From contig DATATI010000036.1 in NCBI GenBank assembly GCA_036268875.1, positions 1-64,000 of the forward strand: a stretch of 64,000 bases of DNA, written 5' to 3'. Shown here piece by piece: positions 35,055 through 57,180 of the stretch. Under the pieces are notes generated by a model. It saw nothing but the letters and a program-made list of their open reading frames with translations. It had not been told where the DNA came from and did no database searches. Position 1 is the stretch's first letter. Each line of letters opens with the position of its first letter. The position numbers and the translations under genes were made by a program. The stretch is from Polyangia bacterium. Lineage in GTDB: Bacteria > Myxococcota_A > Polyangia > Fen-1088.

Positions 35055-36362
35055 TCACGGAAGCGCGACGAAGGTGACGGCGGCGGCCTGGCTCTTGGTG
35101 CTGGTCGGGCTGCCCACCGGCGTCAGCTTGCCGCTGGTCGCGTCGACGCTGAACACCGTCACCTGTGAACCGGCCTGGTTGGCGGTGACCAGGTATTTGC
35201 CGGTCGGATCAAATGAGAACTCGCGCACGTCGCTGGTGGCGGTTCGTTGCCAGGTGGCGCCGGTTGGTTTGCCGGTGGCATCAATCGAGAAGATCCCGAT
35301 GCTGTTGTCCGATCGATTGGCGGCGTAAAGGAACTTGCCGCCAAAATCGATGTGGCCGCCGGCGCCGGCCTTGCCGCCGGCGTCCAGCGCGCTGACCACC
35401 TGCGGGTTGGCGATCTTTCCGCTGCTCGAATCGTAATCAAAATAAAAAATCTGGTCGGTGGCCTCGGTCAACACGTAAAGGTGTTTGACGGCGGCGTCGA
35501 AGGTCATGTGGCGCGGATCGGCGCCAAACATGACGGCGGCCGGGCTGTTGGCGGTCAGTTTTCCGGCGGCGAAGCTGAATTGAAGAATGCGCGGGCTGTC
35601 TTTGCCGGAATCACTCTTGCAAGCGGCCAGCAGGAATTTGCCGCTGGGATCGAACTGCACGTTGTGGGCGGAAGGGCAGCCGGGTTGACTGTCGCTGACC
35701 GCGCCCACGCTGCCGTCGCTGCTCAGGCCCAGCACGTCGACGCTGTCGCTGTCGTAATCGGCGGCGACGATCCATTTTCCGTCAGGCGAGATAGACATTT
35801 GCGCGGTGCCGGCCCCGCCGGTCTTCACGGTGTTCATCTTGGTCAGCGCGCCATTGGCGCCGACGCTGAAGGCGGTGATGGTGGCGGCGGTGGCCTCGTC
35901 GTCGACGTACAAGAACTTACCGGACGGCGACGCCACCGAGTACGTCGGGGCTGATCCCGCGGTGGCGCTGCCCATGGCGGTCAGCGCGCCGGTCCCAGTA
36001 TCAAAATGATAGATGGCGATTCCCGAGTCGTTGTAGCCCGAGACGTAAAGGAACACGTTGTTGCTCACCACCGCGCCACCGGCGCCGCCACCGTTGCTGT
36101 CCGCGCTGCCGTCATTGGCGCTGGCACCACCGCCGCCGCCATCGGTGGGCGCGGCGCCGCCGCTGCCCATGACGTTGCCGCCGGTTCCGTTGCTGCCGCC
36201 GCTGGCGTCGGCACCGCCGCTGCCGGCGTCGGCCTTACCGCCGCTGCCGGTGGCCGAGCCGCCAGCGCCGCCCGAGCCGTTCGTTGACCCACCGCCGCTT
36301 GAGCAGGCGACGCCGGCCAGGAACAACACGATGAAAGGACAACAAACGCGGAGGGTTTTCAT
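35055..36362 (-). CDS. Tethered seven-bladed beta-propeller (lactonase-like) lipoprotein
   Basis: A 435-residue lipoprotein. A signal peptide ends FLAGVACSSGGG, a Gly/Ser/Asp-rich tether runs to about residue 95, and the rest is a beta-propeller of the lactonase family (PF10282, 6-phosphogluconolactonase-like): VFLYVSGYNDSGIAIYHFDT, TYSVASPSGKFLYVDDEATA, AQMSISPDGKWIVAADYDSD, AHNVQFDPSGKFLLAACKSD and EFSFDPTGKYLVTANQAGSQ. Whether it is an enzyme or only a binding propeller is undetermined. Its export on a tether argues against a pentose-phosphate role. It is divergent from the DUF1592 gene at 36661. Confidence 0.85.
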   Translation of the reverse strand: MKTLRVCCPFIVLFLAGVACSSGGGSTNGSGGAGGSATGSGGKADAGSGGADASGGSNGTGGNVMGSGGAAPTDGGGGGASANDGSADSNGGGAGGAVVSNNVFLYVSGYNDSGIAIYHFDTGTGALTAMGSATAGSAPTYSVASPSGKFLYVDDEATAATITAFSVGANGALTKMNTVKTGGAGTAQMSISPDGKWIVAADYDSDSVDVLGLSSDGSVGAVSDSQPGCPSAHNVQFDPSGKFLLAACKSDSGKDSPRILQFSFAAGKLTANSPAAVMFGADPRHMTFDAAVKHLYVLTEATDQIFYFDYDSSSGKIANPQVVSALDAGGKAGAGGHIDFGGKFLYAANRSDNSIGIFSIDATGKPTGATWQRTATSDVREFSFDPTGKYLVTANQAGSQVTVFSVDATSGKLTPVGSPTSTKSQAAAVTFVALP

Positions 36363-36660: not shown

Positions 36661-38376
36661 ATGAGAACAGGTGCGAACTTCAGCGCCGTCGCGGCGGCCT
36701 TGGTGCTGGCCGTCGGCTGCACCGGGAGCATCGGACAGTCAGGCGATCCGGGAACCGACAACGGCACGCCCGGTAGCGGCAACGGCACGGGGAACAACAC
36801 CGGCAAGCCCGGCACCGGCACCGGCGTGGTCCCGGGAAATGCCGGCGATCCCACCGCGGCCGGGCCGATGCCGTTGCGCCGCATGACGCACGTCGAGTTC
36901 AACAACACCGTCCGCGACCTGCTCGGTGACGCCAGCAATCCGGCCAGCGCTTTCCCGCCCGATTACGATCCCGGGTTTCTGTATCCGCGGGCCCAGCTGG
37001 TGTCGCTGCAGGACGTCGACACGCTGAAGGACGCCGCATTGGCCCTGGGCAAAGGCGCCGAGAAGAACGCCGCCACGCTGGCCCCGTGCGCCGCTGGCAC
37101 CTCGGAAGACACCTGCGCCCACACCTTCATCAATACCTTCGGTCTCAAGGCCTATCGCCGTCCGGTGGCCAGCGACGAGGCGGATCGCTTGTTCGCGCTC
37201 TACACCACTGCCCGAACGACGCTGGGTTTGACCTATGCCGGCGCCATCGGCGTGTTGGTGGAGGGGATCATCCAGACGCCAACGTTCCTTTACCACTGGG
37301 AGCTCGGCAACAACGCGCCCACCATGGAAGGCAAGGTGGCGCGCCTCAATCCGTACGAGGTGGCGTCGCGGCTTTCCTATTTCATTTACAACTCGCTGCC
37401 TGACCAGGCGCTGTTTGATGCGGCGGCGGCCAATCAGCTCAGCACGCCGGCCGATCTCGAGACCCAGGCCCGCCGCATGCTGGCCGATCCGAAGGGCGCC
37501 AGCACGGTGGCCAACTTCGTCGACGCGTGGCTGACCCTCAGCGACGTGCCCAATCGCCCGAAGGATCCGAACGTCTATCCGCAGTTCAACGATGACCTGA
37601 AGGCGGCGATGATCAATGAATCGCACGCCCTGGTGGCCAGCGTCATGAAGGGCGATCAGAAGCTGTCGTCGCTGCTGACCCAGGACGTCTCGTCGGTGGA
37701 TCAGGCGCTGGCCGCTGTTTACGGCGTCAGCGGCGTCAAGGGCACCACCATGACGCCGACCACGTTGAACACCGCGCAGCGCTCGGGCCTGCTGACCCGG
37801 GCCGCCTTCCTGACCGTCACCGGCGCCACCGACGGGTCGCACCCGGTCAAGCGCGGACGGCGCGTGTACGAACGGTTCTTCTGCGGCGTGCTGCCGCCGC
37901 CCCCGAACGTCGTTCCGGCGGTGGCCACGGCGGCGTCGTCGGTGGGCAAGACCACCCGCCAGCGCTTCGAAGACCACGACAAGAACCCGTGCTCGACGGC
38001 CTGCCACAGCTTGATGGATCCGGTGGGCTTCTTCTTCGAGAACTACGACGGCATCGGCCAGTTCCGGACGATGGACAACGGTGGCGTCGTTGACGCCAGC
38101 AGCGTCATCACCATCGACGGCGCCAAGCACAACTTCAACAATGCCATCGAGCTCTCTCAGGCGCTGTCGACCAGCACCGACGTGGCCAACTGCTTCGCCA
38201 CGCAGTGGTTCCGGTTCGCCACGGACCGCACCGAGACCGACGACGATCAGGCTTCGCTGACCGCCATCGCCAGCGCCTTCAAGAAGACCAACTCGATCAC
38301 CGACGCGATGATCGGGGTGGCCACGTCACGCTCGTTCCGCTATCGGTCGCCTGCCACCGGGGAGATGCTGCAATGA
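36661..38376 (+). CDS. DUF1592-family exported lipoprotein with cytochrome-c-like motif
   Basis: A 571-residue lipoprotein: the signal peptide ends VLAVGCTGS, followed by a short Gly/Thr/Asn-rich tether. The body shows the DUF1587/1592/1588/1585 arrangement known from Planctomycetes and Myxococcota: LRRMTHVEFNNTVRDLLGD, KAYRRPVASDEADRLFALY, SRLSYFIYNSLPDQALFDAA, HPVKRGRRVYERFFCGVLPP and HSLMDPVGFFFENYDGIGQF. Most relatives have a CxxCH haem motif before MDP; here it is CSTACH (Cys444-Cys448-His449), with three residues between the cysteines. The function of the family is unknown. The TGA overlaps the DUF1552 start (ATGA), so the two are coupled. Confidence 0.85.
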   Translation: MRTGANFSAVAAALVLAVGCTGSIGQSGDPGTDNGTPGSGNGTGNNTGKPGTGTGVVPGNAGDPTAAGPMPLRRMTHVEFNNTVRDLLGDASNPASAFPPDYDPGFLYPRAQLVSLQDVDTLKDAALALGKGAEKNAATLAPCAAGTSEDTCAHTFINTFGLKAYRRPVASDEADRLFALYTTARTTLGLTYAGAIGVLVEGIIQTPTFLYHWELGNNAPTMEGKVARLNPYEVASRLSYFIYNSLPDQALFDAAAANQLSTPADLETQARRMLADPKGASTVANFVDAWLTLSDVPNRPKDPNVYPQFNDDLKAAMINESHALVASVMKGDQKLSSLLTQDVSSVDQALAAVYGVSGVKGTTMTPTTLNTAQRSGLLTRAAFLTVTGATDGSHPVKRGRRVYERFFCGVLPPPPNVVPAVATAASSVGKTTRQRFEDHDKNPCSTACHSLMDPVGFFFENYDGIGQFRTMDNGGVVDASSVITIDGAKHNFNNAIELSQALSTSTDVANCFATQWFRFATDRTETDDDQASLTAIASAFKKTNSITDAMIGVATSRSFRYRSPATGEMLQ

Positions 38377-39674
38377 ACAAAGAACGTTTCTCGCGCCGGA
38401 CGCTGCTCAAGCGAATGGGGTTGAGCGCGGCCATGCTGCCGCTGATTCACGCCGAGAAGGCCCAGGGAGCGATGCCCTCCGGCTTCCCCAAGCGCTTTGT
38501 CTCGGTCACCCACACCAACGGCGTCATCGCCAGCTCGTTCTTCCCGACGGGCGCCACCATCGGCACGCTGGGCGGCACGTTGACGACCATGCAGCCGTTC
38601 GCCGCCAAGATGATCTTCCCGATCGGCCTCAACTATCAGTCGATCATGGACGACGGGTTCAAGTACGACGGGCATTTCACCTACTGCGCGACGCTGACCG
38701 GTACCCGCGAGAAGAAATCCGAATCGCACCAGGCGCTGGCGCCGTCGATCGACCAGATGATGGCCGACGATCTGGCCATGAAAGGGGTGACGCTGAAGGC
38801 GCCGCTGCTGAATCTGGGCGTCAAGGCGACCGGCGATACCTGCTCGACGTCGTGGCGCGCCGCTGGTCAGCAGAACGCGGTCGAGCTGGACCCGACCCGT
38901 CTGTTCACCAAGCTCTTCAGCAGCGTTAACATGCCGCCCGCCCAGATGGCCATGGTCAACCTGCGCCAGCAGAGCATCCTCGATTTTTCGGCGCAGGAGC
39001 TGACGGCGTTCGGCAAGCGCCTCGGCACCGACGACAAGCTGAAGGTGCAGGCGCACCTGGAATCAGTGCGCCAGCTCGAAATGCAGATCAAGAACGCCGC
39101 CTCGGCGCCCATGGTCAGCACGGCAAACTGCACCTCTCCGATGTTAGGCGGCGGCAAGGACGCGCAAGGTCTGGCCAAGGACATGTTCGACCTGGTGGCC
39201 ATGGCCTTGAAGTGCGACGTCAGCCGGTTCGTCACCATCGACCTTTATCCGGACGGCGGCGGCGATGGAAACTCGTTCCCCTGGGTCGGCGTCAACCAGG
39301 ATTACCACGCGGTGGCGCACCAGGGCGCGTCGGGCGCCGCCAACAAGATCCTGATCGACAACTGGATCTACTCCAACGTGGCCAACCTGGCGACGCAGCT
39401 GGATGCCACCATGGAAGGCAGCGGCACCGCGCTGGACAACAGCGTGATCGCCACCTTCAGCGACATGGACGACGGAGCCGATCACCTGAACGGCAAGATC
39501 CCCATCACGTTGACCGGCAGCGCTGGCGGCTACTTCAAGACCGGCACGGTCTTCAAATACACCAACGTCGCCCACAACAAGTTGCTGACCTCGATCTGCA
39601 ACGCCATGGGCCTGACGGTGACCGGCGTGGGCGACGCGCGCTACCCGGGCAATCTTCCCGAGCTGGCGATGTGA
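38373..39674 (+). CDS. DUF1552-family protein with twin-arginine signal
   Basis: A 433-residue exported protein. The N-terminus FSRRTLLKRMGLSAAMLPLI is a twin-arginine signal, so it is folded before export and may bind a cofactor or assemble early. The body is DUF1552: FVSVTHTNGVIASSFFPTG, SHQALAPSIDQMMADDLAM, LTAFGKRLGTDDKLKVQAHL and the C-terminal ATFSDMDDGADHLNGKIPIT. DUF1552 proteins are distantly related to the DUF1501/alkaline-phosphatase-like superfamily and are regularly encoded beside DUF1592 genes, as here. No activity is known. Translation is coupled to the preceding gene by a 4-nt overlap. Confidence 0.85.
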   Translation: MNKERFSRRTLLKRMGLSAAMLPLIHAEKAQGAMPSGFPKRFVSVTHTNGVIASSFFPTGATIGTLGGTLTTMQPFAAKMIFPIGLNYQSIMDDGFKYDGHFTYCATLTGTREKKSESHQALAPSIDQMMADDLAMKGVTLKAPLLNLGVKATGDTCSTSWRAAGQQNAVELDPTRLFTKLFSSVNMPPAQMAMVNLRQQSILDFSAQELTAFGKRLGTDDKLKVQAHLESVRQLEMQIKNAASAPMVSTANCTSPMLGGGKDAQGLAKDMFDLVAMALKCDVSRFVTIDLYPDGGGDGNSFPWVGVNQDYHAVAHQGASGAANKILIDNWIYSNVANLATQLDATMEGSGTALDNSVIATFSDMDDGADHLNGKIPITLTGSAGGYFKTGTVFKYTNVAHNKLLTSICNAMGLTVTGVGDARYPGNLPELAM

Positions 39675-53398: not shown

Positions 53399-54778
53399 CT
53401 AAGCTTCGATAGCAGTGGCGCTGGTGGTGACCATACCCGGACCGCCGCCGGCCGACGTCGCTTTGATGCCCACCGACCGCAGCATGCTGAGCAAGACCAC
53501 GCTGCAGCTCTCGTCGCCGCTCGGCGATCGATAGTGGATGCCGGGGTACTTGAAGAAGCCGCCGCCTTTGCCGGCGACCAGGATGGGAAAGTCGCGGATG
53601 TTGTGGAACCGGCCGTCCGAGGTGTCGCTGCTGGCCATGATGGCGGTGTTGTCCAAAACGTTGCCGGCCCCTTCGGGGACGGCCTTCAGCGACACCAGGA
53701 CCTGCGCGAACATCTTCATGGTGAAAACCGTCGACGCCTGCACCTGCGGCTGATCGCCCGGCTCGTCGTGGGTCAGCTGGTGGTGGCCTTCGCTGAGGCC
53801 CACCTCCCAGTAAACCGTGCTGGCCGTGCTGCCCGAGAACATCATCGAGAAGATGCGCGTCTGGTTGCACGCCATGGCGATGGCCAACAGATCGCTCATC
53901 GCCTTGGTCTTCTGCTCGATCTGCTCCTGACCGTTCTGATCGGGATAGCTGCTGGGCTTGGTCGGCACCTTGCACGCCGACGGCGGCAGCTGCTGCGACA
54001 GCGTCAGGCGGTTCTCGATCGCCCGGATGCCTTCCATGTGCCGTTCCAGGCGCGATTTGTCCACCGTGCCGGATTGCGCGCTGACCTTGTTGATGTCGGA
54101 CAGGACCACGTCAAGAACGCTGCGCCGATAACCCAGCGTCGCGTCGACCATCGGCGTGGCGCTGCCCGGCGGGGTAAAGCCGGTGGTGAACAGACGGGTG
54201 AACAGCTTCGACGGATCGTACTCGGGCGCGTTCGGCATGTCCGGGCCGTTGTGCGACAGGTACTGCAGCGTCGTGCCCTCGTTGGTGTTGATGCGGTTGG
54301 AAATGCCCACCTCGATCGACGGGTGCGGCGATCCCATGCCGATGGCCTTGGCCGCCACCTGGTCGATGCTGGGCATGCTGAACGTCGAGCGATACGGCGC
54401 CCCGTTCGCCGGCTGCGAGATGAGCGGCGCGCCCGACAGGATGCCGACGGTGCCGGCGTGGTGTCCGCGTTCGTCGCCCGAGGTGATGCGCGTGCCCGAG
54501 ACGACGTTCACGTAATCTTTGACGCCCGCATCAGCGAGCGGCATCAACGCCAGGCTGGGCAGCCAAGCGGCGCCTTGAACGTCCGGCGTCCAGTGCTCAG
54601 GCTTCACGCCGTTGCCCCAGAAGAAAATTCCGAGACGCGTCGGTATCGCCGTCCCGTCGGCATACGCGTCACCGTTGCCGTTGAACATCGCTTCCAGCGG
54701 CGGCAGCGCAACACCGATGCCCACTCCGCCCATCGCCCCGCGCAGCACCGTTCGTCGACTGATTCGGGATCTCGACAT
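53399..54778 (-). CDS. DUF1552-family protein with twin-arginine signal (second copy)
   Basis: A 459-residue exported protein with the twin-arginine leader ISRRTVLRGAMGGVGIGVAL. The DUF1552 body has RLGIFFWGNGVKPEHWTPD, TRITSGDERGHHAGTVGIL, SIDQVAAKAIGMGSPHPSIE and the closing IMASSDTSDGRFHNIRDFPI. It is a distant paralogue of the protein at 38373-39674. AAGGAG lies about 9 nt before the ATG. The partner DUF1592 gene is here divergent, sharing a 182-bp AT-rich intergenic region, whereas the first set is collinear and overlapping. Confidence 0.85.
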   Translation of the reverse strand: MSRSRISRRTVLRGAMGGVGIGVALPPLEAMFNGNGDAYADGTAIPTRLGIFFWGNGVKPEHWTPDVQGAAWLPSLALMPLADAGVKDYVNVVSGTRITSGDERGHHAGTVGILSGAPLISQPANGAPYRSTFSMPSIDQVAAKAIGMGSPHPSIEVGISNRINTNEGTTLQYLSHNGPDMPNAPEYDPSKLFTRLFTTGFTPPGSATPMVDATLGYRRSVLDVVLSDINKVSAQSGTVDKSRLERHMEGIRAIENRLTLSQQLPPSACKVPTKPSSYPDQNGQEQIEQKTKAMSDLLAIAMACNQTRIFSMMFSGSTASTVYWEVGLSEGHHQLTHDEPGDQPQVQASTVFTMKMFAQVLVSLKAVPEGAGNVLDNTAIMASSDTSDGRFHNIRDFPILVAGKGGGFFKYPGIHYRSPSGDESCSVVLLSMLRSVGIKATSAGGGPGMVTTSATAIEA

Positions 54779-54960: not shown

Positions 54961-57180
54961 ATGAGCGAGCGCAAACGGGTGCTGAGCGGCCAGGGCGCAA
55001 CAAATCACCGTCGGTGGGTGAAGATTGCGCTCGTCGCCTGCGGCGCGTTCGGTTGTTCCGGTAACGTTGGCAGCGGCAACGGAGCGCCGATGTCCGGCAG
55101 CGGCAACAGCGGTGGCGGTGGCAACAGTGGCGGCGGTGGCTCCGGGACGGTGATGGTGACGCCGCCGTCGGCCGAATTTCAGCCCGCGCCGGCCGGCATC
55201 CGCCGCCTCACGACGGTGCAGTATCGCCACACAATTTCCGATCTTTTCGCGGGATCCGTGACTGTCACGGATGATCTGGACGACGACACCTCTCTCAGCG
55301 GCTTCGCCTCGATCGGCGCCGCGCGCATCAGCCTGTCGCCGGTGAACGTCGAGCAGTTCGAGACCGCCGCGCTGGACATCGCGCACAAGGCGCTGACCGA
55401 CGCCACCGCGCGCGCCGCCTTCGTTGGTTGCAATCCGACCACCGCCACCAGCGACGCTTGCACGCAGGCGTTCTTCAAGAAATTTGGCCGCCGCGCCTGG
55501 CGCCGCCCGTTGGCCGACGACGAGGTTGCCACTTACACGATGTTGACCAATGGCATACAAACCTCAATGAAGAGTTTCTTTGGTGGTTTGGAATATGGAA
55601 TTGCTGCTCTCTTACAGTCACCCCATTTTCTTTATCGAGAAGAATGGGGCACGCCGGTGTCCGGTAAACCGTCCCAGCTGGCCTTCAACGACTACGAACT
55701 GGCCACGCGACTGTCGTACTTTTTGTGGAACACCACGCCCGACGACCTGCTGCTGGACGCCGCCGACGCCAAGCAATTGACCGGCAAAGGCTTCGCCGCG
55801 CAGGTGGCGCGCTTGCTCAAGGATCCTCGCGCCGCCAACGGCATCCAGACCTTCTTCACCGAGTACTATCGCCTGGCCGAGCTGGACAACCTGCCGCAGC
55901 TTCCATCGGCGTTCCCGCAGCGCACCGCCACGCTGGGTCCGTCGATGCGCGAGGAGACGCAGCGGTTCCTGGCTGATCTGACGGTCACCCGCGACGGCGA
56001 CTTCCGAGACGTGTTCGACTCGACCACCACCTTCGTCAATTCAGAGCTGGCCAGTCTCTATGGTTTGCCGGCGGTCAGCGGCACGGACTTCGCCAAGGTC
56101 ACGCTGCCGGCCACCGGCATGCGGGCCGGTTACCTGGGGCAGGGCAGCTTCCTGGCGTTGAACGCCCACTCGAACATCACCTCGCCCACCTATCGCGGCA
56201 AGTTCATCCGCGAGATGTTGATGTGTCAGTCGGTGCCGCCCCCGCCCATGAACGTGCCGCCTCTGCCGATGGACACCGGCCCGGCGACGCAGACCATGCG
56301 GCAGAAGCTGGAGATCCACCGTCAGATGGAGCCGTGCAAGAGCTGCCACGCCTTCATGGATCCGCTGGGCCTGTCGTTCGAAAACTTCGACGGCATCGGT
56401 GCCTTCCGCACCAAGGACGCGGGCCAGGCCATCGACGTCACCGGCGACCTGGACGGCAAGGCCTTCAACGGCCCGATCGAGCTGGCCAAGCTGCTCAAGC
56501 AAAGCCCCGACGTGCTGACCTGCGTGGCCCGCAACCTTTATCGATACGTCACCGGCCACATCGAGAACGACGGCGAAGAGCCGGCCATCACTCAACTGTC
56601 CAAGGGCTTCAGCGACGGTCAATATCACTTCAGCGCGCTGGTGAACGGCATGGTCAGCAGCCCCGCCTTTGCCTATGCCGGGCCCCAGTCGAATGATCCC
56701 TTGCCGACGGGCGCCGGCGGCGCCAATGGTGCCGGCGGGATGGGTGGCAGCAGCGGAACGGATGCGGGGATGGTCGACACCGGACCGCCCCCGCCGCCGC
56801 CCACGGACGGTGGCACGGTGCCCACCGGTCCGCTCAGCTTCGCCCAGCACATCGCTCCGATCATCGCCAACAAGTGCTCGCCCTGTCACACCACGCAGGC
56901 GATGGCCGGCTTGAACTTCACCTACGCCAACCTGGTGACCAACGCGGCCGTCACCAACGACGTCACCAAGGCGTGCGACTTCCTGAACCTCTCGGCGCCG
57001 AAGCGCGTGGTCGCCGGCGATGCCTACCACAGCTTGTTGTGGGTGAAGATCTCCAGCGACAACGTCGCCCTGGCCGCCCATTTCTGCGGCGTTCACATGC
57101 CCAAGGATCCGACGAAGATCCTGACCACCGTCGAGCTGGACACGATCGAACACTGGATCCGCGACGGCGCGAAGCCGTAG
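54961..57180 (+). CDS. DUF1592-family lipoprotein fused to a C-terminal cytochrome-c-like domain
   Basis: A 739-residue lipoprotein. The signal peptide ends ACGAFGCSGNVG, with a short Gly/Ser/Asn tether. The DUF1587/1592/1588/1585 core follows: IRRLTTVQYRHTISDLFAG, RRAWRRPLADDEVATYTML, TRLSYFLWNTTPDDLLLDAA, YRGKFIREMLMCQSVPPPP and CKSCHAFMDPLGLSFENFDG, with a canonical CxxCH at Cys459-His463. After a Gly/Pro-rich linker (about 600-625) a separate domain has IIANKCSPCHTTQAMAGLNF (Cys639-His643) and ends VELDTIEHWIRDGAKP, typical of mono-haem cytochrome-c-like domains. The ATG at 54961 follows GGAGG; the frame is open to 54838. Residues around 195-230 are encoded by a tract of strikingly low GC. 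Confidence 0.85.
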   Translation: MSERKRVLSGQGATNHRRWVKIALVACGAFGCSGNVGSGNGAPMSGSGNSGGGGNSGGGGSGTVMVTPPSAEFQPAPAGIRRLTTVQYRHTISDLFAGSVTVTDDLDDDTSLSGFASIGAARISLSPVNVEQFETAALDIAHKALTDATARAAFVGCNPTTATSDACTQAFFKKFGRRAWRRPLADDEVATYTMLTNGIQTSMKSFFGGLEYGIAALLQSPHFLYREEWGTPVSGKPSQLAFNDYELATRLSYFLWNTTPDDLLLDAADAKQLTGKGFAAQVARLLKDPRAANGIQTFFTEYYRLAELDNLPQLPSAFPQRTATLGPSMREETQRFLADLTVTRDGDFRDVFDSTTTFVNSELASLYGLPAVSGTDFAKVTLPATGMRAGYLGQGSFLALNAHSNITSPTYRGKFIREMLMCQSVPPPPMNVPPLPMDTGPATQTMRQKLEIHRQMEPCKSCHAFMDPLGLSFENFDGIGAFRTKDAGQAIDVTGDLDGKAFNGPIELAKLLKQSPDVLTCVARNLYRYVTGHIENDGEEPAITQLSKGFSDGQYHFSALVNGMVSSPAFAYAGPQSNDPLPTGAGGANGAGGMGGSSGTDAGMVDTGPPPPPPTDGGTVPTGPLSFAQHIAPIIANKCSPCHTTQAMAGLNFTYANLVTNAAVTNDVTKACDFLNLSAPKRVVAGDAYHSLLWVKISSDNVALAAHFCGVHMPKDPTKILTTVELDTIEHWIRDGAKP

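Follow-up and report, generated by a model that had tools for sequence, protein, structure and literature searches.

Cysteine spacings other than that of the CXXCH motif have been described previously. For ImcH and some CymA homologues, CX3CH has been described as an atypical motif for haem binding (PMC6295460), one review calls the maturation system flexible where three or more residues separate the cysteines (PMC7096707), and surveys of iron oxidisers count CX3CH among haem sites (PMC10734462, PMC5566968). CcsA1 is listed for the spacing CX15CH (PMC12285233). The protein studied here resembles ImcH and the CymA homologues in having three residues between the cysteines, with the histidine placed right after the second one; however, the latter are described as multihaem membrane cytochromes, whereas ours is a PSD-family protein with only one such motif, and the likeness is one of spacing alone.

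The PSCyt3 proteins of Planctomycetes and Verrucomicrobia, in the account given in PMC5615132, combine PSCyt and PSD domains in one polypeptide, occur in many copies per genome and have a conserved neighbour gene of unknown function, as is the case here; the difference lies in the motif, our protein having CX3CH in place of CXXCH. Cbp2D of Cellvibrio japonicus is described as bearing an annotated DUF1587 and two further domains, each containing one CXXCH; its X183 domain binds haem in the crystal structure, and a role for the protein in supplying electrons to polysaccharide monooxygenases was considered (PMC8981238). It also differs from the protein studied here in having CXXCH rather than CX3CH, and its X132 domain is no more than a candidate counterpart of the PSCyt3 module. 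No report of CX3CH in PSCyt3, DUF1588 or DUF1592 proteins was found in the open-licence full-text literature.

The window, a 64,000-nucleotide stretch of the genome of a Polyangia bacterium, carries at positions 36661-38376 of the plus strand an open reading frame of 571 codons. The encoded protein has the domain order DUF1587, DUF1595, DUF1592, DUF1588 and DUF1585, that is PSD3 (residues 73-102, positions 36877-36966, E 3.5e-9), PSD5 (residues 152-214, 37114-37302, E 4.4e-16), PSD4 (PF07631; residues 229-356, 37345-37728, E 2.4e-40, 138.4 bits against a cut-off of 23.3), PSCyt3 (PF07627; residues 374-471, 37780-38073, 94.7 bits against a cut-off of 27) and PSD2 (residues 490-559, 38128-38337, E 3.1e-13), all on the plus strand and above the curated Pfam cut-offs; the PF07627 and PF07631 matches place it in the PSCyt3/PSD family. 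Within PSCyt3, positions 37990-38007 of the same strand (TGCTCGACGGCCTGCCAC) encode CSTACH, with Cys444, Cys448 and His449, so that CX3CH is found in place of CXXCH. The sequence and its translation agree on this point with the first-pass annotation, as they do on the canonical CKSCH that it had ascribed to the paralogue beginning at 54961, which was found at 56335-56349.

The protein contains seven cysteines (20, 143, 152, 408, 444, 448 and 511) and only one haem-type motif. Cys143 and Cys152, as well as Cys408 (37882-37884, plus strand; invariant) and Cys511 (38191-38193, plus strand; near-invariant), vary little or not at all across 66 aligned sequences. The two pairs probably form disulfides, Cys408 being a possible partner of Cys511. 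Cys20 (36718-36720, plus strand) follows a hydrophobic N-terminus, a possible export feature, and is a cysteine in 82% of the sequences with a letter at this place; it is probably the cysteine of a lipobox, which would make the protein a lipoprotein. A DUF1552 (HXXSHH) gene, assigned by Pfam and located at 38373-39674 of the plus strand, has a start codon that shares bases with the stop codon ending the PSCyt3 gene (ATGA, at 38373), and its product has an RR motif in the N-terminus. As far as can be told from these sequence features, the protein belongs to the PSCyt3/PSD family, is probably exported and anchored by lipid, and has a DUF1552 partner encoded alongside it.

The genome from which the window comes (6.15 Mb) contains 34 PSCyt3 copies, four of them with CX3CH (L010, L017, L058 and the window protein itself, L018) and 30 with CX2CH. 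A sample of 96 copies from this genome and its family comprised ten with CX3CH and 86 with CX2CH. A scan of named genomes, in which an alignment of eight CX3CH proteins served as the query, gave 465 places, and the best 80 of them (79 distinct loci) contained 82 PSCyt3 matches, 22 of the CX3CH type, a proportion biased by the peptide patterns in use, GF[AGF]FE[HN]YD and [SAT]PxF[LV]YHWE. These loci belong to myxobacterial isolates or to metagenome-assembled genomes labelled Myxococcales, Myxococcota, Polyangia, Deltaproteobacteria or Proteobacteria. Five of the 22, on contigs equal in length to some already in the set, were counted as duplicates, and the pooled sets, after subtraction of seven sequences judged to come from the same contig, comprised 171 distinct copies. 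The first-pass annotation had taken the three-residue spacing for unusual in this family, and rightly so: CX2CH, far from being a minority state, is present in 144 of the 171 copies, and CX3CH in 27.

At the level of the phylum, a strict DNA pattern combining CX3CH with DPxGFxFE matched seven places in three of 377 genomes, namely the own genome and its two family members present there, and the CX2CH version of the same pattern gave matches in 94 of the 377. A looser CX3CH pattern found 21 places in seven of the 18 genomes of the family, and at least one CX3CH copy is present in all eight PSCyt3-bearing genomes of the family if L051 is counted for G014. The motif is not confined to the family, because one of the copies (L172) comes from Sorangium cellulosum So ceGT47. 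CX3CH is a conserved spacing variant that is common within one bacterial family but seldom seen elsewhere in the sampled phylum.

Comparison of the 171 distinct copies indicates how the two spacings are related. Cys-His is present in all of them, and the first cysteine stands at either -4 (27 copies) or -3 (144 copies) relative to the second; a cysteine at both of these positions, or at neither, was found in no copy. The nearest upstream histidine lies at -9 from the second cysteine in 21 of 27 CX3CH and 111 of 144 CX2CH copies, and arginine or lysine occupies -15 in 23 of 27 and 128 of 144, respectively. Since the distance between the flanks and the second Cys-His is preserved, the first cysteine alone has moved, to -4 instead of -3. 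The additional residue, or 3-bp insertion, that the first-pass annotation had allowed for is absent; chain length is unchanged, and the window protein differs from its CXXCH paralogues in that one cysteine is placed one residue earlier. Because no copy has both first cysteines or lacks both, the change from one spacing to the other requires the gain of one cysteine and the loss of another in neighbouring codons, and no intermediate was found among the 171 copies. Neither the 96-copy set nor the matches in named genomes included a PSCyt3 domain devoid of the motif, but the profile with which the copies were gathered was built from motif-bearing members, and motif-less relatives may be under-sampled. 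Homologues that share 34-56% identity with the window protein along its length retain CX3CH. In a separate PSCyt3 subgroup (L051, L172, L023, L025, L027 and L068), Cys-His is followed by an additional residue, for example in CHTTLINPLG, and the CX3CH members of this subgroup are L051 and L172.

The reading that we favour, with a probability of roughly 60%, is that haem is still bound through both cysteines, attached by Ccm-type machinery, with a loop longer by one residue. Cys444 and Cys448 would both be thioether-bonded to one haem and His449 would serve as its proximal ligand, as in CXXCH cytochromes, from which the protein would differ in the one-residue extension of the loop between the anchors. 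That the CX3CH copy most likely still holds haem follows from the reported occurrence of the same spacing in other cytochromes. Full conservation of Cys-His, combined with the either-or placement of the first cysteine, points to a joint need for both sulphurs and the histidine, as would be expected of haem c more than of a simple disulfide; the other cysteines of the protein, moreover, would pair without Cys444 and Cys448 (Cys143 with Cys152, Cys408 with Cys511). The preserved register of the flanks, the retention of CX3CH in the homologues mentioned above and its clustering on the tree (six changes against 23.6 in shuffles) also count in favour. The first-pass annotation had proposed that this copy either binds haem in a non-standard way, binds another metal or uses a disulfide. 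This was too strong, and the last two options are not needed, because CX3CH is reported as a haem motif (PMC6295460) and maturation is described as flexible (PMC7096707).

Attachment would be performed by the general Ccm (System I type) machinery, which must then tolerate the CX3CH spacing; this machinery is proposed because no extra lyase gene accompanies the motif. In the experiments of Allen et al. 2009, Ccm of E. coli reportedly attached haem correctly to cytochrome b562 with CXnCH motifs of n = 3 and 4; that was, however, an engineered protein, whereas the CX3CH of PSCyt3 belongs to a natural family. In the own genome there are three Cytochrom_C_asm matches above the Pfam cut-off. CcmF/NrfE-like (E 8.7e-125) and CcmC-like (E 1.9e-29) proteins are present, both below the curated NCBIfam cut-offs; the protein with the third match most resembles CcsB of System II (E 2.1e-27, also below the NCBIfam cut-off), so the type of the machinery is not certain. 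A CcmH-like match exceeds the Pfam cut-off (E 8.2e-9). All 18 genomes of the family contain one to three Cytochrom_C_asm matches, and carriers of CX3CH have no extra one; on these counts a haem lyase dedicated to CX3CH was rejected.

A separate observation concerns CcmH. A match to it occurs in each of the eight family genomes that carry PSCyt3; in five of these it is a C-terminal domain of CcmF, which accounts for the greater length of CcmF in PSCyt3 carriers. None of the ten PSCyt3-free genomes, which belong to two genera, has a CcmH match; this co-occurrence is confounded by phylogeny. In an alignment of CcmF regions from 12 genomes of the family (L200-L211), the seven PSCyt3-free genomes included have CcmF without the CcmH domain. 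Several families of the class also have CcmH matches within long open frames of 844-1161 codons, whose length alone suggests that they are fusions. A CQCGSC-type cysteine cluster is found in G014 as well, by an expression that recovered two of 18 loci. The CcmH-CcmF arrangement is not specific to CX3CH.

An alternative to haem attachment is that the Cys-Cys-His of PSCyt3, whichever its spacing, forms a disulfide or holds another metal. AlphaFold2 gave a mean pLDDT of 89.2 for the whole protein (residues 1-56 below 50) and 92.6 for residues 374-571 modelled alone (198 residues). Cys448 and His449 are predicted in the first turn of a helix (446-459), and Cys444 in a short stretch just before it. 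Foldseek searches with the 198-residue and the whole model gave no cytochrome c among the matches listed (best E 2.3 and 1.0, respectively); the P450 haem domains that appear among the matches of the whole model do not exceed chance level (E no better than 1.8, TM no higher than 0.08). Nor did a second structural comparison of the two models list a cytochrome c (Z at most 5.2 and 3.9), and no relative in the PDB was found by sequence profile. Neither model thus matches a solved cytochrome c, which does not in itself show the fold to be new. The lack of such a match speaks for a non-haem site, as does the lack of a conserved distal methionine, none being kept in at least 60% of 66 sequences over residues 374-571; Met246 and Met273 of the window protein lie in PSD4. 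The only candidate distal ligand within 374-571 is His439, at the end of the preceding helix, kept in 88% of the 66 sequences. The main weakness of the haem assignment is that PSCyt3 owes the term cytochrome to its name and its motif rather than to a confirmed fold or cofactor, and no experiment showing haem in this domain was found in the open-licence full-text literature. On the other hand, a disulfide does not require the histidine that follows the second cysteine in 171 of 171 copies, and the family is named as a cytochrome domain (PF07627, PSCyt3). Cbp2D, with its annotated DUF1587, is described as having the haem-binding X183 (PMC8981238), which does not imply a relation of that domain to PSCyt3. 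We regard a disulfide or another metal as unlikely.

Another explanation accepts haem in both types of copies but supposes that in CX3CH copies it is altered, either held by one thioether or shifted in potential or ligand by a strained loop, and that these copies do a different job from their CX2CH paralogues. It is in line with the distribution of the motif on trees, which were computed with the motif itself masked. CX3CH is clustered rather than scattered: four changes were required against 9.7 in shuffles for 96 sequences, six against 29.7 for 178 sequences with duplicates included, and six against 23.6 for 96 selected sequences. The window protein falls within a group of 12, all CX3CH, with support of 99. 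Whether the motif forms a clade, as the first-pass annotation asked, receives a divided answer. In the free tree, 24 of the 27 CX3CH sequences lie in one region, with three CX2CH sequences among them (L074, L108 and L171), and a single clade of these 24, a group named after the tree had been seen, was not rejected (p-AU 0.14). Extension of the clade to 26 sequences, with L051 and L172 and without L058, was rejected (p-AU 4e-6); the former two belong to another subgroup, and L058 stands apart again on a long branch. CX3CH was therefore gained more than once, or gained and then lost, and the three CX2CH sequences among the 24 make both reversals and repeated gains possible.

Residues typical of the clade (YHWE, Pro419 and Gly409) accompany CX3CH, and one genome keeps both types of copies (4 and 30 of 34), which would suit a division of labour. 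YHWE (residues 211-214, positions 37291-37302, plus strand) marks the clade with most of the CX3CH copies; elsewhere YRxE is often found. In the 96-copy set, where the segment was found, it is present in eight of nine CX3CH and none of 69 CX2CH copies, the segment not being found in one and 17, respectively. However, YHWE also occurs in two CX2CH sequences, L108 and L171, and the separate CX3CH copy L051 has YRTE; a coupling of YHWE to CX3CH was rejected on account of L108 and L171, and the scan of named genomes had itself used a YHWE pattern. The clade residues track ancestry, not cysteine spacing. Both cysteines are, moreover, always kept, which argues against a single bond. Altered haem with a separate job is accordingly quite improbable in our estimation. 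The related idea of the shifted cysteine as a functional switch, in which the haem geometry would be changed by lengthening of the anchor loop or by attachment through one thioether, to give a potential or reactivity unlike that of the 30 CX2CH paralogues, appears doubtful. Least of all can the spacing be ascribed to a 3-bp assembly or base-calling error, a negligible prospect that is refuted by the recurrence of CX3CH in independent assemblies of other genomes and in three paralogues of the own genome, with no change in length relative to CX2CH copies.

If haem is held through both cysteines, as we favour, it would exchange electrons with the DUF1552 partner or serve an oxidation step outside the cell as their donor or acceptor, which is the least supported point of the scheme. 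By analogy with what was considered for Cbp2D, one may speculate that such transfer with the DUF1552 partner takes part in oxidative attack on polysaccharides. A DUF1552 homologue adjoins 75 of the 81 PSCyt3 genes in the named-genome loci, downstream in 65 and upstream in ten; in two of the remaining loci it is on the other strand, and it was not found at four, three of which have fewer than 460 bases downstream. In one CX3CH subgroup (L119, L126, L132, L133, L137, L143, L144 and L146) the DUF1552 gene is upstream, not downstream.

CX3CH in PSCyt3 is a genuine, modest variant of a motif whose variants are already known. An inventory of c-type cytochromes based on CXXCH only would miss the window copy together with its relatives. 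Should haem be confirmed, these proteins would offer natural same-genome sets of one protein differing by a one-place move of a cysteine, the reason for the two-residue spacing of CXXCH would become directly testable, and the result would bear on haem binding by the large, uncharacterised PSCyt3 family. The motif would gain in interest only if the haem proved to be changed by the shift; were the functional switch true, the CX3CH and CX2CH copies would form a natural matched set for probing the purpose of the CXXCH spacing.

The number of PSCyt3 copies ranges from 9 to 42 in eight genomes of the family (G000-G002 and G013-G017) and is zero in ten (G003-G012). Two near-identical PSCyt3 genes of G016, L083 and L084, lie on different contigs, which suggests a recent duplication. 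Elsewhere in the window, the paralogue with CKSCH, identified by its reading frame and Pfam (54961-57180, plus strand), has a second motif, CSPCH (56875-56889), in a C-terminal extension, and the same layout is seen in the own-genome copy L011; a second DUF1552 reading frame (53399-54778, minus strand) is divergent from this CX2CH paralogue. The PSCyt3 gene at 36661 has its own divergent neighbour at 35055-36362 of the minus strand, which encodes a seven-bladed beta-propeller protein of the Lactonase family (PF10282).
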